NCBI GenBank assembly: GCA_013289765.1
Contig: JABCZI010000003.1
Location: forward strand, 248,001-312,000
Origin: Acidobacteriota bacterium
GTDB taxonomy: Bacteria > Acidobacteriota > Terriglobia > Terriglobales > Acidobacteriaceae
Direction of reading: 5' to 3'
DNA: 64,000 nt
Shown: one piece after another, positions 40,429-61,899 of the stretch
Position numbering within the stretch: the first letter of the stretch is position 1
How the letters are laid out: each line of letters begins with the position of its first letter
Notes under the pieces: model-generated
Told to the model about the DNA's origin: nothing
Seen by the model: the letters and a program-made list of their open reading frames with translations, nothing else
The model's database searches: none
Program-made: the position numbers and the translations under genes

Positions 40429-43400
40429 CTAATTCGACTTTTTTCCAGGGCTGCCGCTGCCTTCCGGCGTTTCGCTCAACTGCGTGCGCAACCATTCCGA
40501 AAGGTGACCCGAAATGCCATCGGGTTGCACTTCCAAGCGGTCCGGCGACGTGCGATATGCGTCGATAACCGGTGCCAGAGAGCTGCGAAGAGAACTTGCC
40601 GGCAAAATGCCGTTCTTTCCGTCGATCGGGCGTTGCACCAGTAACGAGCGCGGTGCCATCGCTGCCATGACATCGGGAAGATCGCCCACTTCGAGAATTC
40701 CAGGGACGATCACGTCGCCAGGCACGTAGGAGAAGGCATCATCGAGAATAGATGCATAGCCGATTAGCCCGCCCCTCACGGAGACAGCACGCACACGATC
40801 TTCGTACAGGGCTCCCAATATCGCCAACAGCCCTCCGAGGGGCTCTGCCTGGTGCTGAATGGTGGGGCCGACGCGCCAGGCCGGCGTTTCATCCACCACC
40901 CAGGGCGATTGATTCACCTCCGCAAAGGAGTCGCCCCATAGCGCCAGACGTGTTGCGTCGATCTCCCGCCGCGTCCCGAGGTAGGCGATGACCGTTCGAA
41001 GATCCTTTAGCCTCTTGCCGAGCAAGGTTTCGTCGAGCATCTCTTCCACTGAAGCAAGAGCCATCTCCTGGTTGGAGATTGTCCGGGGCACGAAGGTCGA
41101 AGGACCGCGGTCCGAATCGGGGGATGTCTCGCCCGTACCGCGCATGTCAGGTAGGCAAACCTCAATGCCCGCATCGACCAGCGCTTCGATTTCATCAGGG
41201 CGTTCGCCGATGAATCTCTCTTTCCCTCCTTCTGCTACCGCAATCACCACGGGCCGGCGCGCGGCGCTATTTGTTGAAGGGTGGACGAGAAGCATTGGGA
41301 CAATAATGCTGGGCTCCACCTCCAAGGTAAGCGCTTCCACCGTTGCATTCCGCCACTGTTTTTTCCAACCCGACGTGGCTTGAGGAGACTGGTTGGGTTC
41401 GACATCACCCAGCTTCGCCGCCCATTGCTTCTGCAGCCGGCGGCGCCGGTCTTGCGGGGACATTTTTGCCATTTCGGACCTCGCAGTGCGCAACTCGGAT
41501 GCAGCCACAACCGCAGCGAGATGATGCACGGTTTCCATCCTGAGCTGGGAAGCAATCGCGGGCGTCAGGCTTTGCAGTTCGGACTCGGGACGGCGGTCAT
41601 CCGGTTCCTGAAGAGGGGCGGGAATGTTGAACCAGCGTTTGAGATAGGGATAGATGGTCTGACGCTGCGACGGTCCAATATTGGCAGCCTCTCCGGGCCC
41701 AGGGAAAGGACCAAAACCATGAGCCTCTCCGAGATGATCTTTCGCCGAATAGAAATCAAAAATTTTCTGATAGCGATTCCATGCAGGCTCATTCGTGATG
41801 TTCCACCCGAGTTCGTAGGAATAAATGAAACGACGAGGGGCAACGGAGGCGTCGATAATCCATGGAAACAACTGGTGTGCAATACTACCGGGCAGAGTTC
41901 CGGCTTCATGCCACTCGTTGATACCCGGATCGGCCAGCCCCGGGAATGCGCTCTGAGCGCTCTGTTCCGGTTCCGCTTCCCCGAAATTGAATGGAACAAC
42001 GGCGGCGATGCGGGGATCGAGCGCAGCAGTGACCGCAGCCACTGGACCGCCTCCCGCAACTGCCCCCAGCAGGATGATCTGTTCAGGATTGATATCGCTA
42101 CGGGCGATCAACAGATCCACGCTACGCATGACGTCCCAGACCCTCCACTTAATCATGCTTTCGCCGATGAGGGAGAGCTGCATATCGGTAACGGAGAGCA
42201 AGTTATGGCTGTCGCGATTCCAAGGATAAGTTTGAAGGCGTTCCCCGTACCCGATCTGATCCATGATCAAGACGGCGCATCCGGATCGTGCCCATAAAAT
42301 CCCCATATCCTGCAATTCTGCTTGCGACTTTGGCCGGTGCTGGCTGTGGACGATGACGATTCCCGGCATCCGGCCTTTGGGATTGGAGGGCAAGTAGAGA
42401 TTGGCGGTGACCCAGAATCCCGGCCGGCTTTGGTAGACCAAATCCTCCCGCTCGTAGCCTTCGCCCTCGAATCTCTTGATAACGCGCGTTTCGAGCGCAG
42501 TGCGCTCCGGAAAGTGCCCTATGGCATCAGCGAGCGCGTGGATGCGCAGATCACGAAATCGTTCCCAATCTTTTTGAGTTCGCAGCTGATCGCGATCATG
42601 CTTTTCCGATTCGAGGACCTTGAGAACACGGCCCTGAATCTCCTGCAAAAGCATCTCCGAAAGATTGGATTCTTTGCGTTGAGCAGGCGAGAGCACACGA
42701 GTTTCGAACTCTGCGGGCGCAGGCAGGGAGACCACCTCCGTCGAGGCAGAAATATCTCGATCGGCCAGAGTCATGCGCCTATAGCGCGCCGGGCAGAGAG
42801 CCGTATTACTCTCGATCACGGGCAAAACACTCGATTCTGCCGGTTCGCCATCGCGCGCGGGCCGGAAGCGCATGAGCAGAATTCGCCATTCCGCCGGTAT
42901 CGACGTTTCGCCCAATGCCGCTGCGACGGGCTCGAGTGGAATGTCCATCCGAGCCTCCCATGAGCCTTCCGCCCGGTGGATAGCAACGCGGGCGCCGCTT
43001 GTCCACTCCCGCGGTTGGGACTGCCGCTCCCCACCGGCGAAGCCCATGGTGTCGAGCAGATATCCAGTCGCGTTGACCGCAAATTCGGCGTAAGACGATC
43101 CAGAGCTAGCGAGGTAGAGCTGGAAACTGTCGTCTTCGGTGACGGGGCCATCGTTCTCGGTCACACCAGCCACGATGCGATCGAGTTCGGTGCTTTTCGC
43201 GATCACGGATAATGTGTGGCCGTCTTGCAGCAACTTCACGAGCGTGGGGAAGCGTGGACGACGGGCGTTCTGCTCATCCCGGAGCAGGGACAGCGACGGC
43301 ACATCCGCCCATGCCGGATCGTTCCACCAGCTGTCAAGCGACGGCAGTGACGACCGTCGGCCAACCTCTATGGCAGGCTCCTGATTTCCCACGATGGCCG

Positions 43401-44082
43401 ATTGCAACGCGGGCGCAGGGTCGTCCCATTTAACTGATTTCGTGACCGGTATTTTCGCCGCCGGGCCATACTCAGGCCAATGCCACCGCTCGCGTGGCGA
43501 TCCGGATCGCGTGGCGCGAATCCGCTCAACACTTAGGTAGATATTCTCCGATTCGGGCGCGCTCAACTGGTTCAGTGGAATCGCCACTTCCGCGTCCCAT
43601 TCGGTGGCGCTGCGCGAGGTCGCGACGAGAAATTTATCAGCGTCCCGATAGAGGACGGATCGTTCCCATTCATCCACATACGGGTCCTCTGGGTGACTTC
43701 GATAGATAACATGAACGGCCTGTTCGACCGAATAGGCTCCCAAAGGGTTCACTTGTACGATTCGATCGGTATCACCGTCATTGGCGCCGGCGCGGATGCG
43801 CAGGGCATCCTCTTCCTCCCAGCTCGGATTGCGGCCGGTCAAGCGCGCGACGAAACGGCCGGTGGGCTCAGGGAGATGCGCGGAGATATATAGGTAGCGG
43901 CCGGCAACGAGGGCGCGGATCTCGCCTCCGGAGGCACTGGGCCCTCCCTCATCGGATGGGATGAGCTTTACCGGTGTAGCCTCTGCCCAAATGGGGTCGT
44001 TTAATTTACCGTCGACAACCAACGGCGCTATCTGCGCTGCGGCAGAGATAGTTAGCAGAAAACCAAAGATCAAATAGCGCAT
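40429..44082 (-). CDS. Giant exported protein: two CBM9-like domains and tandem alpha/beta-hydrolase modules
   Basis: 1,217 residues, signal peptide ~1-17. CBM9/DOMON-like domains at ~20-215 and ~240-440. Hydrolase module 1 at ~545-820 keeps the acetylxylan-esterase-like fold (NLYLPSNPKGRMPGIVIVHSQH, LIMDQIGYGER), but the nucleophile elbow reads LLGAVAGGG (671-679), so Ser is Ala676, and the His region reads GPGEAANIG. Hydrolase module 2 at ~915-1205 has GDSFA (Ser1052), Asp1154 and His1193 as a possible triad. It should be secreted and bind glycans, with module 2 as the likely esterase. It is downstream of a shorter paralogue (44217-47315) on the same strand. Confidence 0.82.
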   Translation of the reverse strand: MRYLIFGFLLTISAAAQIAPLVVDGKLNDPIWAEATPVKLIPSDEGGPSASGGEIRALVAGRYLYISAHLPEPTGRFVARLTGRNPSWEEEDALRIRAGANDGDTDRIVQVNPLGAYSVEQAVHVIYRSHPEDPYVDEWERSVLYRDADKFLVATSRSATEWDAEVAIPLNQLSAPESENIYLSVERIRATRSGSPRERWHWPEYGPAAKIPVTKSVKWDDPAPALQSAIVGNQEPAIEVGRRSSLPSLDSWWNDPAWADVPSLSLLRDEQNARRPRFPTLVKLLQDGHTLSVIAKSTELDRIVAGVTENDGPVTEDDSFQLYLASSGSSYAEFAVNATGYLLDTMGFAGGERQSQPREWTSGARVAIHRAEGSWEARMDIPLEPVAAALGETSIPAEWRILLMRFRPARDGEPAESSVLPVIESNTALCPARYRRMTLADRDISASTEVVSLPAPAEFETRVLSPAQRKESNLSEMLLQEIQGRVLKVLESEKHDRDQLRTQKDWERFRDLRIHALADAIGHFPERTALETRVIKRFEGEGYEREDLVYQSRPGFWVTANLYLPSNPKGRMPGIVIVHSQHRPKSQAELQDMGILWARSGCAVLIMDQIGYGERLQTYPWNRDSHNLLSVTDMQLSLIGESMIKWRVWDVMRSVDLLIARSDINPEQIILLGAVAGGGPVAAVTAALDPRIAAVVPFNFGEAEPEQSAQSAFPGLADPGINEWHEAGTLPGSIAHQLFPWIIDASVAPRRFIYSYELGWNITNEPAWNRYQKIFDFYSAKDHLGEAHGFGPFPGPGEAANIGPSQRQTIYPYLKRWFNIPAPLQEPDDRRPESELQSLTPAIASQLRMETVHHLAAVVAASELRTARSEMAKMSPQDRRRRLQKQWAAKLGDVEPNQSPQATSGWKKQWRNATVEALTLEVEPSIIVPMLLVHPSTNSAARRPVVIAVAEGGKERFIGERPDEIEALVDAGIEVCLPDMRGTGETSPDSDRGPSTFVPRTISNQEMALASVEEMLDETLLGKRLKDLRTVIAYLGTRREIDATRLALWGDSFAEVNQSPWVVDETPAWRVGPTIQHQAEPLGGLLAILGALYEDRVRAVSVRGGLIGYASILDDAFSYVPGDVIVPGILEVGDLPDVMAAMAPRSLLVQRPIDGKNGILPASSLRSSLAPVIDAYRTSPDRLEVQPDGISGHLSEWLRTQLSETPEGSGSPGKKSN

Positions 44083-44216
44083 AGATCGCTCCTTTGCCGC
44101 AACGATTACCGAATCAATCCCGATGCTAGAGCATTTTTAACGATTACTGTGATCTGGCGAGACAGCTAGCCAGGGGCGGTCATTGTTTTCTCGCTTTCAC
44201 CAAAAGCAAGAATGCT

Positions 44217-47200
44217 TTAGCGCGACAGTTGTCCGTCAAGCCAGTCGGCGAGTCCAGCTGAACTGGAACGCTCGCGCACGATCAGTCGCGACGGGACAGA
44301 TTGAGCCTTTCCTAAGCCCGGCCGGAGTTCCAGGTCCACTTCCGGTTCCGTCAGCCCGCGGTCGCGTGCATCAACGAAACCTTCGAGCAGCACGGCACGC
44401 GGGGCCAGCGCAGCGACGATGTCGCTAATATCCGCAGTCTCGAGAATGCCGGGTACGATGGCGTCCTCCGGCACGTAGCTGAAACGATCCTGCAGAACGG
44501 AAAGGTAAGAAACCAGGCCGCCACGCGCGGCGACGGCGCGGACATCATCTTCGTAGAGGGCGGTGAGCAAGGCCAGGAGACTGCCCAGCGGGTCCGGTTG
44601 CTGGATTATTTGAGGACCGGCCTGCTGGCCGACGCTCTGATCGAGCAATCCTTCGCGCGGGTTTGTCGCGGCGAATGAATCTCCCCAAAGAAGCAATTGC
44701 TTCGAATCGATATCGGCACGGTTCATTAGATAGTGAACCACCGTTCGGGCATCCTTCAAACGTTGTCCTAGCGCGGTTGCGCCCAGCATTAATTCAGTTG
44801 CCGCCAGCGATGTCGCGGAGGAAGCGTTCTGCCATGATGGCGTGCTCGACTCGTCGCCCGCGGCAACGGAACTAAGCGCGGCAGTCTCTCCGGTTCCTCG
44901 CACATCGACCAGACAGACGGCCACCCCGCGTCCCAGTAACGCTTCAATATCGCTGCCCCGCCGGGTGAGGAACGCCTCCTTGCCGCCCTGTGCGAATGCA
45001 ATGACAACGGGCAAATGCGACGCAGGGGCAGCTTGAGGTTTAATCAAGAACAGCGGGACGCTGATGCCGGGAGCCGTGTCGAGTGCGATCGCCTCGACTG
45101 GAAGTCCCGAGAATTGCTTCGTCCAGATGGTTCGCGCGCGAGCCTTTGGTGCCGGATCGATATCCCCGAGTTTCTCATGCAGCGAGGCGCGCAGGGTCCG
45201 CAACCGCTCGGATGCCGAGAGAGAAGCGCGTGATGCGCGCGCCTGCGCCAGGCGCGTTTCCGCAATTTCAAAAGCGAGTGCGCTAACGGTTCTAGGTCTT
45301 CGTTCCGCGGCAGCCTGTGGTGTCAGGGACATCAGATCTGCTTCGGGACGCGGATTGTGATATTGATCTGGTGGAACCGGAATATCGAGCCAACGTTTGA
45401 GAATGGGATACATCTTTGCGCGATGCTGCACGCCAACGTTTTCGACCTCACCGGGACCGGGGAAAGGACCGAAACCATCGACCTCCCCGAGGTGGTCCCG
45501 CTGACCATATAGCTCGAATACTTTTTGGTACCGCTTCCAAACTGGCTCATTCTCGACGCCGTTTGGCCAGCCCAGCTCGAAGGGGAAGATGAAACCACGA
45601 GGAGCAACTGAAGCGTTGATCAACCAGGGAAAGAATTGGCGGGCGACGCTCAACCGGAGGCCGCGGGTCGAGTCATCTGGGTCGCCTCCACCCCAACCGG
45701 GGTTTGCGATCTCTGCATCGTAGGGGCGCGGTCCGGTCGTGAAATGGCCTTCAGGGCTGGCTTCCCCAAAGTTGAACGGGACGACAGCCGCGACGCGGTC
45801 ATCGAGCACGGCGGTGACAGCGGCAGGATCGCCGCCACCTGCGACCGCGCCCAACATCACGATGCGCTTGGGATCGATGTAGGGCCGCTCGTACAGGACA
45901 TCGATTGCACACTCCAGATCCCAAACCATCCACTTCATGAGGCTCTCGCCCACAAGGTAGAGTTGGTCTCCCATCGCAATTCGCGAGAAATAGCTCTCCC
46001 GGATCCAGGGTTGCGATTGAATTCGCTCCCCTGCACCGAGCTGATCCATGATCAGCACGGCCGTACCGGCTCGAGCCCAAGTCATACCGAGATCCTGCAG
46101 ATCCATTTGCACCTTCGGGGCATGCTCACTGTGGACCACGACGATGGCGGGAATGCGGCCCTCGATCTTCGACGGCAGATAGAGGTTCGCGGTGACGACA
46201 AGGCCCGGGCGGCTTTCATAGATGAGATCTTCGAGAACGAAGCCATCGCCATAATCGAGCCTTCGGGTAACGGAAGTCCGAAGCGCTATACGCTCCGGAA
46301 AAGTTCCGAGAGAAGCTTTGAGCGCGGCTATTTTGGGGTCGCGAAATTTTTTCCAATCGGCCAGCGAGTGAACCGTTTCCCATTCGTGACCTTCGGCGAG
46401 AGCTGCATCTTTCACTCGATCAGCCAGGTTCCTTTCCCACATCTGGTCGACTTCGAGCGTTTTCCGCTCTGAAACATTCCAAACGTTGGTTGGGATGGAG
46501 GCCAACGCAGCGGCTAATGCACTGGAAGCGGATGGCATTGCGACCGCGCTTACCGTTGGCGACGCCCAGTTTTTTCTGACGACGGCCGGGGGTTCTAGCG
46601 AAGCATCGCCGGCGGGTAGCAGGAAGGCCATGCCCGGAGCTGGTCCTGGCCAATACCATCGCAATTCGGGGGCATCCGGCCTGGGTACACGAACCCTCTC
46701 GGCCGAGAGCGAACCGACATTCGCTATGTCACTGATCGGAATCGCGAGTTCAGCACTCCACGCGTTTTTTTCGACTGCGGCTGAGACGAGCAGCGGTTCC
46801 GCCAATTTCTGCGGAAGGCGACGGATATCGACGTAGTTAGCGGAAAAGTAACCTGGGCCGAGCACCGATTCCGACAATGGTCGATCTGGCCAATTGTGCG
46901 GAAGGCTACTGACATCAACCCGATAAGCACCGAGTGGATTGATAGTAATGGTAAGCGTAGTGGCAAAATCACGGAAGTGAACGGTCCAGATGATCAAGTC
47001 CTCCCGCCACCAATCGGGATTCTCGCCCGTGGATCGCGCGACAACCCGCCCGGTCTCGGGAAGCCATGCACTAAGGCACAAATAGCGGCCACGAACCAGA
47101 GCGCGCGTTTCTCCGCCCTGCGGAAACGCTGCGCCGTAGCCGGTCGCTTGCAGAGGAAGAGCGGTCGCTTGTTTCCAGATATTTTCGTCCACCAAACCGT

Positions 47201-47315
47201 CGATCGTCAGTGGCCCATTCACAGAAGGAATTTCCCGTGAGCCTGCGCTGGCGGCGGGAGCCAGCAGAAGACATATAAGGAGCGGAAGAATGTTTTTGAG
47301 CATGAATGAATTCAC
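44217..47315 (-). CDS. Giant exported protein: CBM9-like domain and tandem alpha/beta-hydrolase modules (paralogue)
   Basis: 1,032 residues from ATG 47315 (a second ATG at 47303 is equally good). Signal peptide ~5-24; one CBM9-like domain ~28-235, not two as in the neighbour. Module 1 (~365-645) has MLGAVAGGG with Ala492 at the nucleophile position and GPGEVENVG where the active-site His is expected. Module 2 (~740-1030) has WGDSFA with Ser880, but the C-terminal GISGHLSEWL of the paralogue is SSSAGLADWL here, so the His is missing. This copy may therefore be a binding or scaffold protein rather than an enzyme. 134 bases separate it from the paralogue; both probably share one promoter in the AT-rich region at 47.4-47.6 kb. 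Confidence 0.8.
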   Translation of the reverse strand: MNSFMLKNILPLLICLLLAPAASAGSREIPSVNGPLTIDGLVDENIWKQATALPLQATGYGAAFPQGGETRALVRGRYLCLSAWLPETGRVVARSTGENPDWWREDLIIWTVHFRDFATTLTITINPLGAYRVDVSSLPHNWPDRPLSESVLGPGYFSANYVDIRRLPQKLAEPLLVSAAVEKNAWSAELAIPISDIANVGSLSAERVRVPRPDAPELRWYWPGPAPGMAFLLPAGDASLEPPAVVRKNWASPTVSAVAMPSASSALAAALASIPTNVWNVSERKTLEVDQMWERNLADRVKDAALAEGHEWETVHSLADWKKFRDPKIAALKASLGTFPERIALRTSVTRRLDYGDGFVLEDLIYESRPGLVVTANLYLPSKIEGRIPAIVVVHSEHAPKVQMDLQDLGMTWARAGTAVLIMDQLGAGERIQSQPWIRESYFSRIAMGDQLYLVGESLMKWMVWDLECAIDVLYERPYIDPKRIVMLGAVAGGGDPAAVTAVLDDRVAAVVPFNFGEASPEGHFTTGPRPYDAEIANPGWGGGDPDDSTRGLRLSVARQFFPWLINASVAPRGFIFPFELGWPNGVENEPVWKRYQKVFELYGQRDHLGEVDGFGPFPGPGEVENVGVQHRAKMYPILKRWLDIPVPPDQYHNPRPEADLMSLTPQAAAERRPRTVSALAFEIAETRLAQARASRASLSASERLRTLRASLHEKLGDIDPAPKARARTIWTKQFSGLPVEAIALDTAPGISVPLFLIKPQAAPASHLPVVIAFAQGGKEAFLTRRGSDIEALLGRGVAVCLVDVRGTGETAALSSVAAGDESSTPSWQNASSATSLAATELMLGATALGQRLKDARTVVHYLMNRADIDSKQLLLWGDSFAATNPREGLLDQSVGQQAGPQIIQQPDPLGSLLALLTALYEDDVRAVAARGGLVSYLSVLQDRFSYVPEDAIVPGILETADISDIVAALAPRAVLLEGFVDARDRGLTEPEVDLELRPGLGKAQSVPSRLIVRERSSSAGLADWLDGQLSR

Positions 47316-48030: not shown

Positions 48031-48050
48031 GCATTTCGGAACAGAAATGC
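48031..48050 (+). promoter_or_regulatory. Inverted repeat upstream of the Gfo/Idh gene
   Basis: GCATTTC-GGAACA-GAAATGC is a perfect 7-bp inverted repeat 30 bases before the ATG of the oxidoreductase. No T-tract follows. It could be an operator or an mRNA hairpin; no second copy was found elsewhere in the window. Confidence 0.4.
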
Positions 48051-48079
48051 CTAGAGAGTTAAGAAGTGAGAGAGGGTAT

Positions 48080-49507
48080 ATGACAAACAAGGCAGACGAG
48101 AGGATCGACCGCCGGGCATTTGTGAAGCAAGCCGGGGCGGCTATGCTTGCCACTGGGATGGATGCTCGTTCCTATGCTCGTGTTCTGGGGGCAAATGATC
48201 GTATCCGGCTGGGTCAACTTGGATGTGGAGCACGAAGTCATGGTCATGTTCGCATGGTGCAGCTCGCTGCAAAACAGATGCCGGTGGAAACAGTTGCGGT
48301 CTGCGATATCTGGAGCTTAGCGCGAGATCGGCGCGCAGCTCAGGTGAAGGAGGCATTCAAGCACAACCCACAATCTTACAAATATTCGGAAGAGATGCTG
48401 GCACGTAAGGATATCGATGGGGTGATGATCGCCACCGGCGATTTTCAGCATGCCAAGCTATGCACCGAGGTGGTCCAGGCGGGTAAGGATTGTTATGTGG
48501 AGAAGCCTTTTGCCAATGTATTATCCGAAGCCAAAGCGGCTCGCGACGCGGTGAAGGCGTCGAAGCAGGTTGTCCAAATGGGTTCGCAGCACCGCAGCCA
48601 GCCTTATCAACTCGCGGTTCGAGATATCATCCGTTCCGGCCGCATCGGCAAGATCGTACACATTGAGCAGGAGTGGAATGTGAACGAGGAGCGCTGGAGA
48701 TTCGTAGAGATGGATACTGGCAATTCCGCCCAAATGGAACAAGACCGGAGCATGGAGTGGAAGAAATGGCTCTATGATCGCCCGTCCAGGCTGCGGGAAG
48801 AAGATACCGATTGGAATCGCTGGTTGCTGGGCAAGCCCTACCAACCATTCGATCCCCATGTCTATTTGGAGTTTCGGCTGTACAAGGATTATTCCTCGGG
48901 GATCTTCGACCAGTGGATGAGCCATGGCAGCGACTTGGTGCACCTCTGGACAGATGAGGCATATCCAGAGAGTGTTGTGGCGAACGGCGGCATCTTCGCC
49001 TGGAATGATGGACGTCAAAATCCGGATACCTGTGTTGCAGCGGTTACCTACCCTAAGGGGTTTCTCTATACATATAAGACCACTTTTGGAAATAGTTACC
49101 GGAGTTTTTCACGTATTCAAGGACGCGATGGCACCATAGCTAACTACGGTGGCGAAGGTGCGTCACTCTTTACTGTCAGTACCGAAGGCGGCCGAGACGA
49201 GTTCGCTCCTAGCGATTCGGGACCTGTTTATACTCAGATTCCCATTGCGTCACCAACGAACGACCATGAGGAGGTGGTGCACGTTTCGGGTGCGCCTACC
49301 CCTGATTCGAACGGTCCGGATGACGACGACGCAAATCATCTGATGAACTGGCTTACTGCAATGCAGGCGCGTAAAGAGCCAAATGCCACAGTGGACCATG
49401 GTTTTTCCCACGCCATCGTGATCATCATGGCTGCACAGTCGTATTGGAGCGGCAAGAGACTGTACTGGGATCCCAGGAGAGAAGAGATTCTCGATCACCC
49501 AGTCTGA
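48080..49507 (+). CDS. Gfo/Idh/MocA-family oxidoreductase with Tat signal
   Basis: 475 residues from ATG 48080. Leader IDRRAFVKQAGAAMLATG is a twin-arginine signal, so the folded enzyme is exported with its cofactor. Rossmann fold with LGQLGCGARSHGH, EKPFANVLSEAKAA (EKP motif whose Lys takes part in catalysis), and a C-terminal alpha/beta substrate domain. The family oxidises or interconverts sugars and sugar acids using NAD(P); exported acidobacterial and Bacteroidota members often act on glycosides. It lies between the LacI relic and the esterase gene on the same strand, so a joint role in processing a decorated glycan is plausible. Specificity unknown. Confidence 0.88.
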   Translation: MTNKADERIDRRAFVKQAGAAMLATGMDARSYARVLGANDRIRLGQLGCGARSHGHVRMVQLAAKQMPVETVAVCDIWSLARDRRAAQVKEAFKHNPQSYKYSEEMLARKDIDGVMIATGDFQHAKLCTEVVQAGKDCYVEKPFANVLSEAKAARDAVKASKQVVQMGSQHRSQPYQLAVRDIIRSGRIGKIVHIEQEWNVNEERWRFVEMDTGNSAQMEQDRSMEWKKWLYDRPSRLREEDTDWNRWLLGKPYQPFDPHVYLEFRLYKDYSSGIFDQWMSHGSDLVHLWTDEAYPESVVANGGIFAWNDGRQNPDTCVAAVTYPKGFLYTYKTTFGNSYRSFSRIQGRDGTIANYGGEGASLFTVSTEGGRDEFAPSDSGPVYTQIPIASPTNDHEEVVHVSGAPTPDSNGPDDDDANHLMNWLTAMQARKEPNATVDHGFSHAIVIIMAAQSYWSGKRLYWDPRREEILDHPV

Positions 49508-49728
49508 TCGCAGCCATAAGCTCTCCGAGTTTCGAGGGCTGCTTTTGGAGCGGTTCACGATTACTGTGTCCGCTCCGCCTTCTGAGAAGTGGGGCTTTTC
49601 TCGGTGAAGAGCCCCGTCTGAAGCATTTCACCGGCTACACCTATCGTGAAACCGCTGTAGCAACACTTGGCGGTGATTATCCACCGCAAGGTAAACAGCG
49701 ACTTGAATCCGGGGGAGGGAAAAGATCA
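49508..49728 (+). other. Spacer with hairpin before the esterase gene
   Basis: 221 bases. GGAGCGG (49547-49553) and CCGCTCC (49570-49576) can form a 7-bp stem, a possible structure or weak terminator after the oxidoreductase gene. GGGGGAGGG precedes the esterase ATG as SD. Confidence 0.45.
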
Positions 49729-51708
49729 ATGAAAGCAAGTGGACGGAATTGTGCAATTGCCCTTGCAGCCATGTTTCTTTTGACGACTGCAGCCACCATG
49801 GATGGCCAGACGACCGCAGATACTTTGCAAAGCCTGCTGAAGCAGCCAGTGCAATCCGCGGATGTGAGCGCCTTTCAGATGGAGCAATTCCTGAGTCATC
49901 GCATCACGCCGCTCCCATCCCCCAAGGGCGCGAGCGATTGGGCAAACCAGGAGCAGCGCTTGCGGAAGCATATTTTAGACGACATCGCCTTTCATGGATG
50001 GCCTGACGAATGGGTCCAATCCTCCCCGAACTTCCAGGAGGCCGGGGTCATCGAAAGCGGCAACGGTTACCGGGTGCGAAAGTTTCGCTATGAGATCGTG
50101 CCCGGCTTCGCTGCGACGGCCATTCTGTACGAACCGGAAAAGATGAATGGGCGAGTACCCGCCATCCTGAACGTCATCGGCCATGAGCCGATGGGGAATG
50201 CAGCCGAGTACGAACAGAAGCGTTGCATCAACTTTGCCAAGCGGGGCATCGTCGCGCTAAGCCTCGGATGGGTCGGGTTCGGGGAGCTGGCACGCAAAGA
50301 AGATGCGCACGACGACGCGGCCTCTCTCGATCTGGTGGGTTCCAACGCCCTGGGCTTCTTTTACCTTTCCATGCGCCGTGGCCTTGATTACTTGGCTAGC
50401 TTGCCGCAGGTCGATATCACTCGGCTGGGAGTGACCGGCCTCTCCGGGGGCGGATGGCAGACCATCTTGCTGAGCTCTACGGATCCCCGAGTCGCGGTGA
50501 GCGTGGAGGTAGCCGGCTTCGGAGCTCTCCCCTCCAATATCACTCGACCCGACGACACTTCCGAAGTGGAAGAAAATGCCACCGATCTCACCCAAGATGA
50601 GGACTATCCCTTCTTAGTCGCCATGCGCGCACCCCGGCCCACGCTCCTTATCCATAACGCCGAGGACGACTGTTGCTTTCGGGCAGCCCTGGTGAAGCCC
50701 TACATTTACGATCTGGTGCGGCCCTTCTTCAAGCTATTCGGCAAACCGGATGACCTTGGTTGGTACGAGAGCAGTGATCCCGGTACGCATAACTACCAGT
50801 TGTTTAATCGGCTACAGGCGTACCGCTTCTTCCAGGAGCACTTTCATCTGCCCCCGGTTCCCGATGAGATCCCCAGTTCTACCGAGATCAGGACGCCGCA
50901 GGAGCTCGCCATCGGCATCCCGGCCGACAACCTGACCATCGTCGGTCTGGCCAGGAAACTAGCGGCTGCGAATGCCCGGCCCGCGGTCCCGTCTGATCGC
51001 GAAGCACGCAGCGCATCGATCGCCCCGCAACGGGAGAAGCTCGCGCAAGTCACCCGCTATAAATCGGTTTCGGTCGAGAATGCATGGAGGTTCAGCAACA
51101 CCAAGCGGATGACGATTCGCACGCTGTCGTATCGTTTCGATCTCACTAATGGGCTCAGTGCTTCGGGAGTTTGGCTGCAAGCGATCGGCGCTACGGACGA
51201 TGCTCCAGTGACCATCGTTTTGAACGACAAGGGTTATGCGGCCGCTGGGGAGGTGGTTGCCGAACACGTGAATCGTGGGGAGCAAGTCCTTGCCCTCGAC
51301 TTGCTCTTTACTGGGTCGGCTCGCCCGGAGGCGCCAAATCCGGGGGATTGGGAGATGTTGGTTGCCACCGTCGGCGACCGTCCGCTTGGCCTCGAGGCCG
51401 CGCAGTTGGTTGGGGTTGCGAATTGGCTGCGCGCCAATGATGGCGGCCGGCAGGTTCAAGTGGAAACAGACGGTATTCGTACCGCAGTGATAGGCGCGGT
51501 CGCCGCGGCCATGGAGCCTGCAGCATTCTCCGCGGTCACCAGTCATCACGCGATGAAAAGCCTGGGTTATCTTCTCGACGCGCCGGTACCGTATCGCCTC
51601 GCGCCAGATCTCTTCTGCCTTGATTTATACAAGTACTTCGATATCGATTCGATTTCGGCGATCGCCGCACCCACGAAGATCAAAAACGTCGACTACGTCC
51701 GTCAATGA
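49729..51708 (+). CDS. Exported acetylxylan-esterase-like alpha/beta hydrolase
   Basis: 659 residues from ATG 49729 with SD GGGGAGGG; a longer frame upstream overlaps the previous gene and lacks a signal. Signal peptide ~1-26. Hydrolase domain ~120-375 with an intact triad: Ser239 in GVTGLSGGGW, Asp313/314 in HNAEDD, His354 in DPGTHNY. It is related to module 1 of the giant exported proteins but with all catalytic residues kept. Residues ~385-659 form a second alpha/beta region without a clear nucleophile. Likely removes acetyl or methyl esters from a plant polysaccharide. The stop overlaps the next MFS start by 4 bases (ATGA), so they are cotranslated. Confidence 0.85.
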   Translation: MKASGRNCAIALAAMFLLTTAATMDGQTTADTLQSLLKQPVQSADVSAFQMEQFLSHRITPLPSPKGASDWANQEQRLRKHILDDIAFHGWPDEWVQSSPNFQEAGVIESGNGYRVRKFRYEIVPGFAATAILYEPEKMNGRVPAILNVIGHEPMGNAAEYEQKRCINFAKRGIVALSLGWVGFGELARKEDAHDDAASLDLVGSNALGFFYLSMRRGLDYLASLPQVDITRLGVTGLSGGGWQTILLSSTDPRVAVSVEVAGFGALPSNITRPDDTSEVEENATDLTQDEDYPFLVAMRAPRPTLLIHNAEDDCCFRAALVKPYIYDLVRPFFKLFGKPDDLGWYESSDPGTHNYQLFNRLQAYRFFQEHFHLPPVPDEIPSSTEIRTPQELAIGIPADNLTIVGLARKLAAANARPAVPSDREARSASIAPQREKLAQVTRYKSVSVENAWRFSNTKRMTIRTLSYRFDLTNGLSASGVWLQAIGATDDAPVTIVLNDKGYAAAGEVVAEHVNRGEQVLALDLLFTGSARPEAPNPGDWEMLVATVGDRPLGLEAAQLVGVANWLRANDGGRQVQVETDGIRTAVIGAVAAAMEPAAFSAVTSHHAMKSLGYLLDAPVPYRLAPDLFCLDLYKYFDIDSISAIAAPTKIKNVDYVRQ

Positions 51709-53036
51709 CGATGAAAGGACAAATCGAGATGAGATTGAAGGCCACGCAGCAAACGGGCCTGTCACAGCCGACGCCCAGAAGCGCAGGGCGGGTGCGGTGG
51801 TGGACCGTTTGGACGCTGTTTTTTTCCACGGTTACGAATTACATCAGCCGCCAAACGTTCTCCATTGTGTCGCCGCTGATTGCAGCCCAATATCACCTGA
51901 GCCACACAGACCTGGCTAAGATTCTTGGCGCATTCCAGATTTCTTATGCGATCACGTGGCTTCTCGGGGGAATCTTTCTGGATGCCGTGGGAACGCGGAT
52001 TGCCCTGGCTTTGGCCGTAATCTTCTGGTCGGTCGTGAACATCCTGACGGGTCTTGCCTCGTCGGTTTTCGGGTTCGCCTCTTTTCGGTTTCTACTGGGG
52101 ATCGGCGAAGGCTTTAACTGGCCGGCCGCCAGCAAGACGGTGGCCGAGTGGTTTCCCAACCAGGAGCGCAGTCTCGCCGTGGCCATCTTCGACAGTGGAT
52201 CGAGTGTAGGTGGCGCCTTGGCGGCGCTGCTCATTCCCTGGGTCGCTTTGGCCTTTGGCTGGCGATGGTCCTTTGTGTTTTCAGGATTGCTCGGTTTCGT
52301 TTGGTTGGCGCTGTGGCTGCGCGTCTACCATCCATTAGACCGTCATCCGCGTGTGACGCCGGAGGAGGTAGCGTTGATCCGCACCGGTCAGGACGTGCCT
52401 CGCACCTCGACGGGACGCGGCCTGCAACGTTGGCTCGATCTCCTCCGGAGCCGCAATGTCTGGGGCATTGTGCTGGGCCGCGCACTGACCGATCCCATTT
52501 GGTGGTTTTACGTTTTCTGGCTACCGCAGTACCTGAGCGATGCCCGCGGCTTCAGCCTGAAGCGGATCGCCCTGTTCGCCTGGATGCCGTTCGTTGCCGC
52601 CGATATCGGCAACTTCACCGGCGGACTGATCTCCGGCTATTGCGTTCGCCGGGGTGTTTCCGTGGTCCGCGCCCGAACCTGGGTCTGTGCCTTCAGTTGC
52701 CTGCCGATCCTGGCCGGCATACCCGCCGCTCGCGTCCACAGCGTCTATACCGCGTTGGCGCTGATCTGTATCGCCCTGTGGGGTTACGCCAGTTGGTCCA
52801 CGATAGGCTTAACGCTGCCCTCCGACCTGTTTCCGCAAGATGTGGTGGCCACGGTTACCGGACTCAGCGGATTTGCAGCAGGCTTGTTCGGAGCGGCCTT
52901 CACGTTCGCCGTAGGGATTCTAGTCGATCGATTTTCTTATGGTCCAGCGTTTCTGGCCGCGGGTCTAATGCCCCTCTTCGCGACTGCTTGCTTGTTTCTT
53001 TTGATTCGTCCGCCCGGTAGAGTCTCTCAGCCTTGA
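51705..53036 (+). CDS. MFS transporter, ACS/hexuronate-type
   Basis: 443 residues, 12 helices. SRQTFSIVSPLIAAQYHLS, GIFLDAVGTRIALA, GIGEGFNWPAASKTVAEWFP and RSLAVAIFDSGSSVGGALAALLIPW are the ExuT/GudP-like marks of hexuronate and aldarate carriers. ATG overlaps the esterase stop. Together with the sugar-acid genes downstream on the opposite strand this fits uptake of hexuronate released by the esterase-linked glycan degradation. It is more distant from the two MFS genes of the middle island than those are from each other. Confidence 0.9.
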   Translation: MTMKGQIEMRLKATQQTGLSQPTPRSAGRVRWWTVWTLFFSTVTNYISRQTFSIVSPLIAAQYHLSHTDLAKILGAFQISYAITWLLGGIFLDAVGTRIALALAVIFWSVVNILTGLASSVFGFASFRFLLGIGEGFNWPAASKTVAEWFPNQERSLAVAIFDSGSSVGGALAALLIPWVALAFGWRWSFVFSGLLGFVWLALWLRVYHPLDRHPRVTPEEVALIRTGQDVPRTSTGRGLQRWLDLLRSRNVWGIVLGRALTDPIWWFYVFWLPQYLSDARGFSLKRIALFAWMPFVAADIGNFTGGLISGYCVRRGVSVVRARTWVCAFSCLPILAGIPAARVHSVYTALALICIALWGYASWSTIGLTLPSDLFPQDVVATVTGLSGFAAGLFGAAFTFAVGILVDRFSYGPAFLAAGLMPLFATACLFLLIRPPGRVSQP

Positions 53037-53141: not shown

Positions 53142-53918
53142 CTACTGGTTCACACCACTTGCCAAGAAACCGCCATCGACAACTAGAACTTGCCCTGTAA
53201 TGAATGAGGCTGCGTCTGAGGCGAGATAGATGGCTGCACCGATTAATTCCTCCGTCTGGCCGAAGCGGCCCATCGGTGTGCGCATGAGCAATTCCTTGCC
53301 GCGGGCAGTGTTGTCCAGGAGATCTGCGTTTAGGGCGGTCCGAAACACTCCGGGTGCGATAGCGTTGACAAGAACACCTCTCTTTGACCATTCGACCGCA
53401 AGCGAGCGAGTGAGAGAGGCGACGCCAGACTTGCTGGCTGCGTAGGCGGCCACTTCGCTGAGCGCCACGAAAGTATTGAGCGATGCGATGTTGATGATGC
53501 GTCCGTAACCGCGCTCAAGCATGTGCTTTCCGAAGACCTGGCACGCCCGAAACGCTCCAGTAAGGTTGGTGTCGATGATGTCCCGCCACTCTTCTTCTGT
53601 CATATCGAGCGTGGGAACCCGCTTGATCTTGGCCGCGCAGTTAACGAGAATATCGATCTTTCCAAAGCGCTGGAGGGAAGCAGCGGCTAGCTGTTTGAGA
53701 GATTCGCGATCACGGAGGTCGCAGGTTACTCGCAGAGTCTGGCGTCCACGAGCCTCGATCTCTGAGGCAACCTCTTCGACATTATGGTCGCGACGAGCAG
53801 ATGCAACAATATCGGCGCCTGCTTCGGCGAGACCCAGGCTCAACGCCCGCCCGATGCCCGATGTGCCTCCGATTATGACAGCCACCTTACCCGCAAGACT
53901 AATGCTGGTCGTCGGCAT
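53142..53918 (-). CDS. SDR-family oxidoreductase, probable sugar-acid (fructuronate-type) reductase
   Basis: 258 residues. NAD(P) motif GGTSGIGR (17-24), NCAA near N93, catalytic Ser146, Tyr159 and Lys163 (YAASK). C-terminal SFITGQVLVVDGGF is the classic SDR end. It is closest in style to gluconate 5-dehydrogenase/2-deoxygluconate dehydrogenase proteins. Last gene of the leftward run after gluconokinase (24-base gap). In Thermotoga, a similar SDR-gluconokinase-UxaE set serves hexuronate catabolism, so it may reduce fructuronate to mannonate; the exact substrate is inference. Confidence 0.85.
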   Translation of the reverse strand: MPTTSISLAGKVAVIIGGTSGIGRALSLGLAEAGADIVASARRDHNVEEVASEIEARGRQTLRVTCDLRDRESLKQLAAASLQRFGKIDILVNCAAKIKRVPTLDMTEEEWRDIIDTNLTGAFRACQVFGKHMLERGYGRIINIASLNTFVALSEVAAYAASKSGVASLTRSLAVEWSKRGVLVNAIAPGVFRTALNADLLDNTARGKELLMRTPMGRFGQTEELIGAAIYLASDAASFITGQVLVVDGGFLASGVNQ

Positions 53919-53942
53919 TCTTTTCCGTCCTTAGATTGTGCT

Positions 53943-54443
53943 TCAAACAGTGACAATCTTGAGTTGTCCGAGCAACTGTTGCACGGCCTCCTCCTCCGTG
54001 CCGCAGACAGAGATGCGCCACGTATCTGCCGGCGCTTCAAGAGCAGCCAACTGACTGTCCAGCAAGCGTGGATTCATGTATTCATGGTGCCGTTTCCGGA
54101 TGCGTTCTTCGAGCAGGCCGCGCGGAGCGTCCAGCAGCGCAAAGCGGACCTGATTGGGTTCGAAACCTGCAACTAACAAGTTGCGGTATTTTTGCTTTAG
54201 CGCCGAGCAGGCGAGGACGGCATTCGCGTCACAATTTATGAGCTCCTGCATCCGCATGTGCAGGACCTTCAGCCACGGCTCGCGATCTTCATCGGTGAGC
54301 GGAGTGCCGGACTCCATCTTCCGCCGGTTCGCCGCAGAATGGTAGTCGTCGCCATCCTCGAAGCACCATCCCAGCCGGCTTGAAAGAAGGTGTCCAATCG
54401 TCGTCTTGCCAGCGCCGCTAACGCCGAAAAGAATCAGAATCAT
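53943..54443 (-). CDS. gntK: Gluconokinase (GntK-type)
   Basis: 166 residues, the usual length. Walker A GVSGAGKTT (7-15), FEDGDDYHSAANRRKMESGTPLTDEDREPWL for gluconate recognition and CSALKQKYRNLL, all signatures of thermoresistant-type gluconokinase. It phosphorylates D-gluconate to 6-phosphogluconate with ATP in the cytoplasm. The start overlaps the UxaE stop by 4 bases (ATGA), which indicates translational coupling. It is the step that feeds this operon's product into the pentose phosphate/Entner-Doudoroff routes. Confidence 0.93.
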   Translation of the reverse strand: MILILFGVSGAGKTTIGHLLSSRLGWCFEDGDDYHSAANRRKMESGTPLTDEDREPWLKVLHMRMQELINCDANAVLACSALKQKYRNLLVAGFEPNQVRFALLDAPRGLLEERIRKRHHEYMNPRLLDSQLAALEAPADTWRISVCGTEEEAVQQLLGQLKIVTV

Positions 54444-55717
54444 GAGCCTCCGTTATCCCCAAGAAATACCGGCCCGATATGGCGAGCATAGAGATTATGA
54501 GTCACATTCTTGGCGATCACTTCCTCGTTTGCCTCCAGCAGATCAAGATATTTACGCCCCATTTTTGCGGCTATCTTGAAACCGACATGGAGCAACTGGC
54601 GAAAGCTGCGGTTGTAAGAATCCGAACTGGGGTCGTGCCGGAGCGCGGAAGTGAACTCCTCGGACGACCACCGTCGAACTTCCGCCGGCACAGGAAGTCT
54701 TTGTGGGTCGATGTCAATGACTGTGGCATAGGGCTGACACAGTTCTTCGCGATGTGCATAGGCCTCGATATAAATCTGCTGGGCGAGTGCCAAGCCCTCT
54801 CCCCCCGCTTCGGCGAGGCCTATGATCTCTTCGAGCCAAGTGGTTCCGGCAGTTTTAAGGTGAACCCCCGCATTGCATTGTTTCAAAGCGGAGTGAATCG
54901 CTGGGTAGATGGAAAACTTGTCGCTGCCCGAGTGTATGCTGAGTTTCAGGTTGCTGGGCAATCCGTATTCCCGGACGGCATGAGCGATTGCCGCTAGATC
55001 GAGTTCCATTTCGCGAGCAAACTGCGAGACATCGCCCGCGTAGTCTACGCCCTTGTTGAAACGTCCACTGAACTTGGGCGCTATGGTCTGCAACGGAATG
55101 CCCTCGTCTGCAATCGCTGCCAAAATAATGAGAAGTTCCAGAGGCGTCTGAGCAAAGTCCGTTTCGTCCATGGAGACTTCGGAGATGAAGTTGCCTTTCC
55201 CCTTTGCCGATTCAATCCTACGGTACACGGCGCTGGCCTGCTGCACGGCAAAAAGAAACTTGCTAGCGACCTGCGACAGGACCGCCGGCGTGATCTCGAA
55301 GCTTTCTTCCACCCTGTTGATCCTGATCTCACCGAGAAGCTCGCTGTGGCGGCGCACGAAGGCATCCATCGATGACTGGTCCGTTTTTCTGCCTATGAAA
55401 TCCGCCACGTCGATCGTGTAGAAGTCGCAGGAGGTGAGAAACCGTTCAACGGTTTGGAGATTGATATGGTCAGCGTCGCAATAGTACGGCTTGGTCCACT
55501 GGAGAGACTTCACTGCGGCATCCGCTGCAGCACGTGTCGATGATGGTTCGGATCCGATGATGTTGTGCTCCCGGTTCGATTTATTCCACACGGGAACTAC
55601 TTCAACTCCGGCCCGTGAAGCGCGCAAGCAAGCCTCAAGCTGCGCTTTCGCCTGATGTGCGAAGCGATCACCGACTCCGACTGAAAATTTATCAAGTGTA
55701 AATCGACGGTTCGTCAT
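54440..55717 (-). CDS. uxaE: Tagaturonate epimerase family protein (UxaE)
   Basis: 425 residues. Recognisable UxaE blocks: FSVGVGDRFAHQAKAQL, VWNKSNREHNIIGSEP, PYYCDADHINLQTVERF, SIHSGSDKFSIYPAI and VHLKTAGTTWLEEI. The His/Asp/Lys-rich motifs are consistent with a metal-dependent TIM-barrel epimerase. In Thermotoga maritima UxaE converts D-tagaturonate to D-fructuronate, joining the galacturonate and glucuronate branches. Here it lies between the LarA-family gene (11-base gap) and gluconokinase (4-base overlap). Length matches the family. No uxaC isomerase, uxaB or uxuA is in the window. Confidence 0.85.
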   Translation of the reverse strand: MTNRRFTLDKFSVGVGDRFAHQAKAQLEACLRASRAGVEVVPVWNKSNREHNIIGSEPSSTRAAADAAVKSLQWTKPYYCDADHINLQTVERFLTSCDFYTIDVADFIGRKTDQSSMDAFVRRHSELLGEIRINRVEESFEITPAVLSQVASKFLFAVQQASAVYRRIESAKGKGNFISEVSMDETDFAQTPLELLIILAAIADEGIPLQTIAPKFSGRFNKGVDYAGDVSQFAREMELDLAAIAHAVREYGLPSNLKLSIHSGSDKFSIYPAIHSALKQCNAGVHLKTAGTTWLEEIIGLAEAGGEGLALAQQIYIEAYAHREELCQPYATVIDIDPQRLPVPAEVRRWSSEEFTSALRHDPSSDSYNRSFRQLLHVGFKIAAKMGRKYLDLLEANEEVIAKNVTHNLYARHIGPVFLGDNGGS

Positions 55718-55728
55718 GCTCCCTCGAC

Positions 55729-56997
55729 TCAGAACCTGCCTCGATAGGCCCAGAGGCCGAGACCGGGATTCGCAATGAAAAAGATTTCCTCACCCTCGAC
55801 CGTGTTCCAGCCATGCTGGAGTTTTTTCGGATCGTAGCGCGAGAGCATCTCATTAAGATCGCCGTAAGCAAATCCGACGCCTTCCACTTCCTTACGAGTC
55901 AGGTGACCTGGGCATAAGTTGATTGAGAAGCGTCCCTCGGAAGAGCCGTGAATCAGGTGCGCAGCGGCCCCCAGCTCATTTGCGAGATCGGCATTCGCTT
56001 CGACGGCGGCCAGGGTCGCAGGGGTGCCGCGATAGCCGTACTTGCGGATCAGGGTATTGATGCCGCGGTCTTCGCCGAACTCTTTCACGCCGGGTGCGAG
56101 AATGATGAGGTCAGCCCCTTCGGCAAGCGCCAAACGCGTGCGGTAGACCGCCTTGTTGCCCAGCCATGTGCTGTGATATTCGCGCGGGTCTAGAAAAACG
56201 ACCGCTTTGCGAATTGGGCGGTCGAGCATCTCGAAGTTAACCGCCAGGCTTAGTTCGGCGGCGCGATGGAAACACTCGACGTCGTCTCCGATGAACAGGC
56301 CGCGTACGGTAAGACCGCCACTTTGACTATGCCCTATCACGGTAAGCACATAGACAATGGGAATCTGGCTCAGGAAGTGGTCGGAGGCATAGTTGAGGAC
56401 GCTGCGCACGGGGTTTTCGGCGCGGCCCATGATGCGCTCTATACCGTAGACGGCACCGAGATAGTGACTACGGTTGATGCTGTCACGTCCGCCGGTCCCG
56501 ATCAGGATGTTTTTGTTGTAGTTCGCCATCCCGATCACTTCGTGCGGCACGACCTGCCCCAGGGAAAGGATAAGATCGAAGCCGCCGTGTACGAGCAAAC
56601 GATTCACCTGCGCAGGCCACGCGTAATTTAATTTGCCTTCCGATTGCTCGTGGATGAACGTTTCTGGGACTTCTCCGAGCGTCTCGGTATCAGTGCGCCA
56701 GTTGTGAACCCGAAACAGCTCATGAGGCATTTTGCCGAACATTGTGGTCAGTTGAGCCGGCGACATCGCGGTGTGCGTGCCTAAGGCCGGAAGGACGGCT
56801 TCTAGCCGGCTGCCGTAATAGTCATGAACGTAACGAGTCAACTCGCCGGCGCGAGATTCTCGGCGGGTCAGATCGGGCGGGACAGCGAGCACATGGCGGC
56901 GCTCTCCAAGTTTGCGGAGCGCTTCGAATAACAGGCTCTGCAACTCAGTAGAGGAGATTTCCAGGTCTGGACTGCCCTTTGCAATATAGAGACTCAT
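55729..56997 (-). CDS. LarA-family nickel-pincer epimerase, probable D-mannonate/D-gluconate 2-epimerase
   Basis: 422 residues, the LarA length. The residues that hold the nickel-pincer nucleotide and act as acid/base in lactate racemase have counterparts: H75 (ALGTHTAMS), H152 (VVPHEVIG), K162 (NYNKNILIG) and H178 (INRSHYLG). Characterised LarA homologues include D-gluconate 2-epimerases, and relatives next to uxaE are annotated as mannonate epimerases. Between UxaE and gluconokinase the natural reaction is D-mannonate to D-gluconate. The cofactor requires LarB, LarC and LarE, which are not in the window and must be encoded elsewhere. The assignment of substrate is inference; family membership is firm. 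Confidence 0.87.
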   Translation of the reverse strand: MSLYIAKGSPDLEISSTELQSLLFEALRKLGERRHVLAVPPDLTRRESRAGELTRYVHDYYGSRLEAVLPALGTHTAMSPAQLTTMFGKMPHELFRVHNWRTDTETLGEVPETFIHEQSEGKLNYAWPAQVNRLLVHGGFDLILSLGQVVPHEVIGMANYNKNILIGTGGRDSINRSHYLGAVYGIERIMGRAENPVRSVLNYASDHFLSQIPIVYVLTVIGHSQSGGLTVRGLFIGDDVECFHRAAELSLAVNFEMLDRPIRKAVVFLDPREYHSTWLGNKAVYRTRLALAEGADLIILAPGVKEFGEDRGINTLIRKYGYRGTPATLAAVEANADLANELGAAAHLIHGSSEGRFSINLCPGHLTRKEVEGVGFAYGDLNEMLSRYDPKKLQHGWNTVEGEEIFFIANPGLGLWAYRGRF

Positions 56998-57116
56998 GCA
57001 GTGAAATCCACTTTTTCAGGCCAGGAGCCAGGATTTGCCAAACACTGCCCCGACAGCACTCTGTGGGAACAGGTCGGAAGCAACCGTGAAGAGATTCGCC
57101 GACCACCTAGGTGTGC

Positions 57117-57150
57117 GGCCGCCGCAAGGCCAGGCAATCCGACGGCGGCC
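57117..57150 (-). other. Hairpin between nagB-like and LarA-family genes
   Basis: GGCCGCCG (57117-57124) and CGGCGGCC (57143-57150) form a perfect 8-bp GC stem with an 18-base loop in the 183-base gap between two leftward genes. No T-tract follows on the minus strand, so it is more likely an mRNA stability or processing element than a terminator. Confidence 0.5.
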
Positions 57151-57180
57151 CACTCGGAATTCAAACTGCTTTCAACTCTA

Positions 57181-58005
57181 CTACGAAAAGCCGTCTACTT
57201 CGGCTGCAGATTCCCGATCCAGATAGATCGTCGCATCCGGATGCTTGCGAAGAAGAGTCGCCGGGCAGTTCGTCGAGATCGGATCTTCGAGCGTCCGACG
57301 GACAATCTGTGCCTTGCGGCTGCCGGGAACAGATATGATCAGCTTGGGTACTCGAAATATCGCCGGGATCGTCAAGGTAATTGCCAGCTCTGGAACTTCC
57401 TGAAAATCATTGAACCAACCTTCGGCCGCTTGCTGCTTTCGGCATACCGCATCCAAATGCACAATCTTCACAGCCACGGGATCGTCGAAGTTTGCCTCCG
57501 AGGGATCATTGAATGCCAAATGTCCATTTTCCCCAATCCCGAGCAAACATAGTTGCGGATCAGCTAAACGCAATTTTTCAGCATACCCTCTGCACATCGA
57601 ATCGAGATCCCGCGCATTCCCATCAATCTCATGGAATGCCTTCATACGCACACACCGAGTCAGATTCTCGCGCAGGTATCTACGGAACGAGGCGCGATGG
57701 TTCTGGTCTATCCCTAGATACTCATCCAGATGAAACCCTTGAACATTATGCCAAGGCAGATTAGGAATTGAGGTCAGTGCATTTAGCGTTTCCAGCTGTG
57801 AAGCACCGGTTGCAAAAATAACGCTCGGGCTTCCTCGACGGTCTAATTCGTGGAGGGTTTGTGCTGTAGCTCGTGCTGCCGCTTCACCCGCTGCCTTTTT
57901 GTTGGAGTGGATCTCTAGTTTTAGCAGCCCTACCTTAAAATGTTGAACTTCACCGTTTCCCGTGTCCACAGTCTCTCCTTGCTGAAACCTTCTTGTTAAA
58001 CTCAT
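57181..58005 (-). CDS. Glucosamine-6-phosphate deaminase-like protein (NagB family)
   Basis: 274 residues from ATG 58005 (MSLTRRF); an upstream ATG at 58035 is possible. Key stretches: VIFATGASQLETLNAL (phosphate loop), NVQGFHLDEYLGI, LLGIGENGHLAFNDPSEANF, ALTLTIPAIFRVP-like ITLTIPAIFR and CPATLLRKHPDATIYLD. The E. coli NagB active-site pair (Asp141 in NDGH) is ENGH here, which is usual in the Bacteroidota/Acidobacteriota NagB-like branch. It catalyses GlcN6P to Fru6P plus ammonia in the main family; members in sugar-acid operons may isomerise other phosphosugars. It lies 44 bases after the TonB receptor on the same strand. Confidence 0.82.
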   Translation of the reverse strand: MSLTRRFQQGETVDTGNGEVQHFKVGLLKLEIHSNKKAAGEAAARATAQTLHELDRRGSPSVIFATGASQLETLNALTSIPNLPWHNVQGFHLDEYLGIDQNHRASFRRYLRENLTRCVRMKAFHEIDGNARDLDSMCRGYAEKLRLADPQLCLLGIGENGHLAFNDPSEANFDDPVAVKIVHLDAVCRKQQAAEGWFNDFQEVPELAITLTIPAIFRVPKLIISVPGSRKAQIVRRTLEDPISTNCPATLLRKHPDATIYLDRESAAEVDGFS

Positions 58006-58049
58006 CTCTGGCCCAAGTTGGTCATGGGATCGCAATTAGCTGAAGGGGT

Positions 58050-61370: not shown

Positions 61371-61899
61371 GTCCGCTCTTTTCTCTGGTCAGGACTTAGT
61401 CAAAGACTCAGCTCGAAGCGCAGTCTCAGGCTGCACAGCCGGAACTATATCCAGCAATTATCTCCAATGTCAAGATAGTTTTCTCGTTTCGTTTGAAAAT
61501 TATGTCGATTGATTTCCCCACGTTGCTAGGCTGAGCTCAAGAGAACCTCAGACTGGAATTTCGCTGTTGCTGCTTTCAGCTTCCCATAAGTGGGGCCATC
61601 GCTAACATAACTACAATATATAGTGCGTTTTGCAGTCTGTTTCGGTGCTTGCCTTCACCCTAGGCCAAGCATAATGTGGACCCATGAAGGTTCGCCAGAA
61701 AGGCATTTTTTCCTTTTTCGATTGCTGCACGTGAAATTTTTCTGTATTGTAGAAGCCACATGCATGGAAAAACCTGTGCCAACGGCGCATCACGACGTAA
61801 CTCCATCCTGGGCTTTTTTTCACCGGATTGGAAGCAACGCGCGAAACAGTTGTACGCGCAAGCCGCCCGAGGCTACATCCTGGAATCGCATGGAATCGC
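61371..61899. other. Divergent intergenic region TonB receptor / LacI
   Basis: 529 bases without a gene. It must contain the promoters of the receptor operon and the LacI gene. TTTTC-N11-GAAAA (about 61479-61499) is a loose inverted repeat that could be a LacI site; it lacks the central CG expected of LacI operators. The direct repeat TGGAATCGCA occurs twice at 61891-61900+ immediately before the LacI ATG. Confidence 0.45.

Follow-up and report, generated by a model that had tools for sequence, protein, structure and literature searches.

Loss of the catalytic serine in the first module of tandem esterase-like proteins from Acidobacteriota and Planctomycetota

Introduction

Of the described proteins, the one nearest to the first of the two hydrolase-like modules discussed here is BT1017, which we take to be the founding CE19 pectin methylesterase. 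In BT1017, the triad Ser282/Asp352/His388 is proven by the S282A, D352A, and H388A variants, a zinc site is present about 9 Å from the serine, and the protein was assigned to a new family (PMC7939467). The AXE1/CE7 acetylxylan esterases are also related to the first module (at the level of the Pfam AXE1 profile), and the CE15 glucuronoyl esterases share the fold of the second. In CtCE2, the esterase site also binds cellulose non-catalytically (PMC2661963), a precedent for a carbohydrate esterase site that holds a glycan without turnover. CtCE2 retains its Ser-His dyad and its activity, however, and it is likened to the present proteins by role, not by descent.

Pseudoenzymes are a kind of protein already known, and they are often called from single sequences. 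The family described here adds a variant of them, in which a catalytic serine was lost once, a loss retained in 34 proteins sampled from two phyla. Two of its members, P1 and P2, are encoded in the window (the whole stretch of DNA analyzed, 64,000 nucleotides long, from a member of the Acidobacteriota).

Results

Two tandem proteins and their relatives

The two open reading frames, 40429..44082 for P1 and 44217..47315 for P2, are present where a sequence-only reading of the window had placed them (all the P1 and P2 features given below are, like the genes, on the minus strand). P1 (1,217 aa) has a signal peptide, two CBM9-like domains, a pseudo-esterase module 1, and a hydrolase-like module 2. 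P2 (1,032 aa), its paralogue in tandem, has a single CBM9-like domain followed by the same two modules. Read from the sequence, a signal peptide is plausible at the start of both. The paralogues are divergent (47% identity over 758 residues of both modules), and their base composition, 0.59 G+C, is not an outlier. No family in Pfam or NCBIfam covers this architecture (with no NCBIfam match above cut-off), and the literature searched on tandem pseudo-esterases contains no description of it and nothing relevant, as the sequence-only reading had supposed.

In a scan of contigs with the P1/P2 pair, 17 clear relatives are found in Acidobacteriota and Planctomycetota, with up to 59% identity over the modules. 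In a survey of whole genomes, clear matches occur in six genomes of the Acidobacteriota type (centre G523; 396 surveyed) and in 13 of the Planctomycetota type (centre G522; 294 surveyed). Within the genus of the window's genome, they occur in one of 45 genomes, namely its own. The alignment comprises 57 proteins, 34 of which form the P1/P2 clade. In a quick tree without bootstraps, computed with the elbow columns excluded, the 34 members with alanine at the module 1 nucleophile are split off from the rest by a branch that has an SH-aLRT support of 100, and the alanine label needs one change.

Beside these 34, in a joint group with support of 89, branch two proteins from Planctomycetota-type genomes (L092 and L097) with two CBM9-like domains and an intact module 1 (TGESGGG; PHGY, PHGYGP, or PHGYGPP). 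Their module 2 contains VGDSLA..NP and, there either, no histidine. Since they combine a module 1 that is still intact with the GDS of module 2, the module 2 motif appears older than the loss in module 1.

The CBM9-like domains

In P1, domain 2 (about aa 236–443; 42754..43377) adopts the CBM9 fold: it superposes on 7nwn with a VIA Z of 19.1 and an rmsd of 2.6 over 168 residues. Pfam CBM9_1 reaches it at E 0.0014 with 19.0 bits, below the cut-off of 23.4, and has no match to P1 domain 1 or to P2; the relative L092 does pass the cut-off (39.7 bits). The assignment of P1 domain 1 (about aa 19–225; 43408..44028) comes from profile comparison, with probabilities of 96.6% to domain 2 and 97.4% to L092; the N-terminal P1 model is weaker, of modest confidence (pLDDT 67.8, pTM 0.54). 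Run against PDB sequences, the N-terminal profile yielded no useful match. The CBM9-like domain of P2 (about aa 34–226; 46638..47216) is the homologue of domain 1 in P1, with 39% identity over 204 aa, and the profile of domain 1 also supports its assignment. One or two CBM9-like domains had been proposed, and the fold match and the profile comparisons confirm this, with two in P1-type proteins and one in P2-type proteins. Sugar binding of the CBM9 kind is putative for these domains.

Module 1 has the esterase fold without the catalytic serine

Module 1 of P1 (about aa 490–850; 41533..42615) has an alpha/beta-hydrolase fold. Pfam AXE1 matches it in both proteins above the cut-off of 21 (28.7 and 31.8 bits). 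The AlphaFold2 model of P1 aa 455–1217 (17 rows) has a mean pLDDT of 86.1 and a pTM of 0.89, and its module 1 superposes with VIA-align on 6goc (BT1017) with Z 33.3 and rmsd 2.8 over 324 residues at 19% identity; the CE15 enzymes are the next best fold family (Z 22–24). BT1017 is also the top PDB sequence match (E 0.00032), and it is likewise secreted and in a uronate context.

The nucleophile elbow in P1 and P2 reads GAVAGGG, with alanine at P1 676 (codon 42055..42057) and P2 492 (codon 45840..45842) in place of Ser282 of BT1017. In the 57-protein alignment, the alanine is found in 34/34 clade members, and in each of them the elbow is longer by one residue (GAVAGGG or SEPAGGG). On the other hand, all the ordinary relatives aligned have serine there, and the ordinary tandem esterases show GxSGGG with a histidine further on. 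Since the alanine is shared by all 34, the loss of the serine is not a local decay.

At the canonical position of the histidine, P1 has E798 and A800 (His388 of BT1017 aligns to A800, with E798 nearby). If column 798 is equated with the canonical histidine, as we read it off the alignment, that residue is His in 25 of the 34 and Gly in two, with Glu in P1 and P2 as well as in five proteins closely related to them; many Planctomycetota members, with SHC, THW, or THF motifs, thus probably retain the canonical histidine. As to the catalytic acid, Asp352 of BT1017 aligns by phmmer to G759, and Glu757 (codon 41812..41814), two positions off in the pocket loops, could serve as the acid. Glu757, Asn699, and Trp760 are invariant in the clade (34/34). 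Residues H579 and H582 are frequent, H579 being replaced by Leu or Pro in several lineages. The esterase fold, the alanine at the nucleophile, and the missing active-site histidine had all been noted in the sequence-only reading and agree with the models and alignments, which support the view that module 1 is, throughout the clade, a pseudoenzyme with an esterase fold. It differs in this from the AXE1/CE7 enzymes, where the catalytic Ser and His are present.

A zinc site of the BT1017 type was considered for P1 and rejected, Cys315/Cys317 having no counterpart there; the Cys ligands are likewise missing from P2. The C-terminal domain of BT1017 is a DUF3826, whereas P1 and P2 have an alpha/beta-hydrolase there and no DUF3826 match.

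Module 2 has a conserved elbow and no shared histidine

Module 2 of P1 (about aa 857–1207; 40462..41514) is again an alpha/beta-hydrolase fold (model residues 404–753), closest to CE15 6rv8 (Z 20.0) and then to the lipase 7q4j (Z 17.8). It differs from the CE15 enzymes in its elbow (WGDSFA), in an identity of about 13%, and in lacking a family-wide histidine.

Within the WGDS motif, Ser1052 (codon 40927..40929) occurs in 29/34 clade members and is otherwise Gly (four) or Asn (one), and position 1051 is Asp or Glu in all 34. Conservation is also high for D1123 (32/34), D1134 (32/34), D1154 (31/34), N1157 (32/34), and K954 (29/34). The five members without Ser1052 (L084, L090, L091, L094, and L095) keep D1123, D1134, D1154, and N1157; since these residues persist when the serine is lost, the pocket is kept without its nucleophile. 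In the subgroup L090, L091, L094, and L095, where the module 2 serine is gone (GEG or GDG), both nucleophiles are lost.

Among the 34 members, histidine is the majority residue in none of the module 2 columns. The nearest is column 1122 (14/34), which is not the triad position. In P1, His1193 (codon 40504..40506) is part of the loop that follows the last strand (model strand 729–732), a proper place for a catalytic histidine, and Ser1052, Asp1154, and His1193 are in loops whose predicted topology would permit a triad. But histidine at that position is absent from all other clade members, and L025, L027, L046, L085, and L086 have tails shorter by about 25 residues just where P1 has H1193 (L042, truncated by a contig edge, is uninformative on the tail). 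According to the sequence-only reading, P1 keeps Ser1052/Asp1154/His1193 and P2 has lost the histidine. The three residues are indeed present in P1, but the polarity of the contrast is most likely reversed, judging from the alignment: with His1193 confined to P1, it is more likely that P2 shows the family state and that P1 is the exception. Across the family, a Ser-His-Asp triad is carried by neither module, and P1 is the sole member that could have one, in its module 2. With the Ser and Asp of module 2 common and the His private to P1, both modules of the family appear to be pseudo-esterases.

Constraint on the pocket loops of this module is marked. By Jensen–Shannon scores, with columns treated as independent and loop categories set by hand from predicted secondary structure, so that the tests are a guide only, the pocket-end loops of module 2 in the clade score 0.586, versus about 0.46 for the rest and 0.41–0.47 for the individual other parts (Mann–Whitney p 1e-6); those of module 1 show a weak excess (0.613 versus 0.535–0.592, p 0.036 uncorrected), and the module 2 loops of the ordinary relatives show no such excess (0.431 versus about 0.42, with the other parts at 0.38–0.43). 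Pairwise identity in module 2 is 40% in the clade versus 24.5% in the ordinary relatives. Within the limits of these tests, module 2 became a constrained site in the P1/P2 clade without a triad.

The gene neighborhood

The P2–P1 pair is divergent from a gene group on the plus strand (48047..53036) that encodes a Gfo/Idh/MocA oxidoreductase, P3, and an MFS transporter related to D-galactonate transporters. P3 (49729..51708, plus strand; 659 aa) is an ordinary tandem esterase relative with the same two-module plan. Its module 1, unlike that of P1 and P2, is intact, as had been claimed (GLSGGG at 237–242 and THNY at 353). In its module 2, the elbow reads GAVAAAM at aa 589, without Ser; ordinary tandem relatives also carry a dead module, the opposite one.

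Further along (53142..62976) is a neighborhood of hexuronate/hexonate catabolism with an SDR and a small kinase (both named from sequence only), UxaE, a nickel-dependent hexonate epimerase, a 6-phosphogluconolactonase-like protein, a TonB-type receptor, and a LacI regulator. UxaE is the tagaturonate epimerase, and the putative nickel-dependent hexonate epimerase matches NF052594 with 631 bits (cut-off 500). Such surroundings fit the capture of uronate-type glycans and favor these as the theme, the ligand itself being putative.

Among the relatives, TonB-type receptor genes adjoin both L025 and L026, and a single, intact esterase adjoins L043; the neighborhoods in Planctomycetota are not clearly glycan-related. 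A conserved operon partner was sought across the loci and none was found, the neighbors differing between genomes. A recent insertion of P1/P2 into a conserved place was also considered and rejected: there is no clean empty site, and only the permease at 37452–39356 matches three congeners, with different flanks. This APC-type permease is 85–93% identical in many congeners with differing neighbors, and it possibly marks the edge of a variable region.

Discussion

Dead enzyme domains conserved over two phyla suggest retention for another job, most likely the gripping of plant-type sugars. We consider the chances about even that P1 and P2 are secreted, non-hydrolytic binders of uronate glycans built from a tandem esterase. 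They would descend from a carbohydrate esterase with two alpha/beta-hydrolase modules in tandem, to which CBM9-like domains were fused. In the ancestor of the family, the module 1 serine would have changed to alanine, and a one-residue insertion would have remodeled the elbow; in the Acidobacteriota subclade with P1 and P2, most members would have lost the module 1 histidine too. Module 2, with a full triad in no relative examined except P1, would have gained the conserved WGDS...N motif. The pockets that once were active sites in the two modules, most of all the one in module 2, may then hold a uronate-type or esterified oligosaccharide, with the CBM9-like domains adding avidity. At the cell surface, the sugar would thereby be retained for P3 as the active esterase, for the TonB-type receptors, and for the adjoining uronate pathway. 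More specifically, and only tentatively, both modules may have been rebuilt as a paired non-hydrolytic uronate-glycan receptor, in which the new acidic pocket of module 2 (D1051, E1080, D1123, D1134, D1154, and N1157) binds the ligand or runs a non-canonical, His-free reaction.

An active module 2 would be the main alternative. The sequence-only reading, right about the architecture, the CBM9-like domains, and the loss of Ser and His in module 1, had taken module 2 to keep a triad that P2 then lost; that part does not stand, and module 2 as a conserved working enzyme is rejected as a family feature, His1193 being private to P1. A non-canonical serine hydrolase would still be conceivable, with Ser1052, Asp1154, and another base such as Lys954 (or His1193 in P1) and module 1 as a scaffold. 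The frequent serine in WGDS, the conservation of D1154, K954, and the pocket loops, and the plausible topology of a triad in P1 are consistent with this, and with the three residues in the right loops, module 2 of P1 itself could be active. However, the serine is replaced in five members that keep the other pocket residues, no histidine is family-wide, and K954 is missing in several members, so that such a hydrolase is rather unlikely. A reciprocal swap, with activity moving from module 1 to module 2, was also considered, because the Ser of the ordinary relatives is in module 1 and absent from module 2, the opposite of the clade; this reading is weakened by the missing histidine of module 2 and by at least two losses of its serine.

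The non-hydrolytic binder must also be weighed against a new active site in module 1, metal-dependent or acid/base, formed by H579, H582, E757, and the H/E at 798. The invariance of E757, W760, and N699, the frequency of H579/H582, and an H or E at 798 in 32/34 members would agree with it, and the zinc site of BT1017 includes the counterpart of H582 (PMC7939467). But the Cys ligands of that site have no counterpart in P1, H579 varies between lineages, and 798 is Gly in two members; we regard such a site as improbable. A structural or regulatory role of P1 and P2, for instance as partners of P3 or a TonB-type receptor, is equally improbable; conserved surfaces would then serve contacts between proteins, and the modules would hold no sugar. 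The location beside P3, or beside an intact esterase or receptor genes in relatives, is in line with this, but the conserved positions cluster at the pocket ends of module 2 and are not spread across helices, and the neighbors vary among genomes. That the genes are decaying and without function, as their presence in a single genome of the genus might suggest, is very improbable given long uninterrupted reading frames, strong conservation, and the same substitutions in 34 proteins of two phyla.

With a single serine loss and relatives in which the site is intact, the step from esterase to non-enzyme is testable by pairwise comparison, and L092 and L097 are useful intermediates for it. Because module 1 passes the Pfam AXE1 cut-off, automated annotation would call both proteins acetylxylan esterases, a label that is probably wrong as to activity.

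One clade member, L078, has about 250 extra residues beyond module 2, and its genome (G527) holds four clade members. Adjoining a P2-type gene, a 324-aa protein (L028:616-1587) has no Pfam match at E 0.001.
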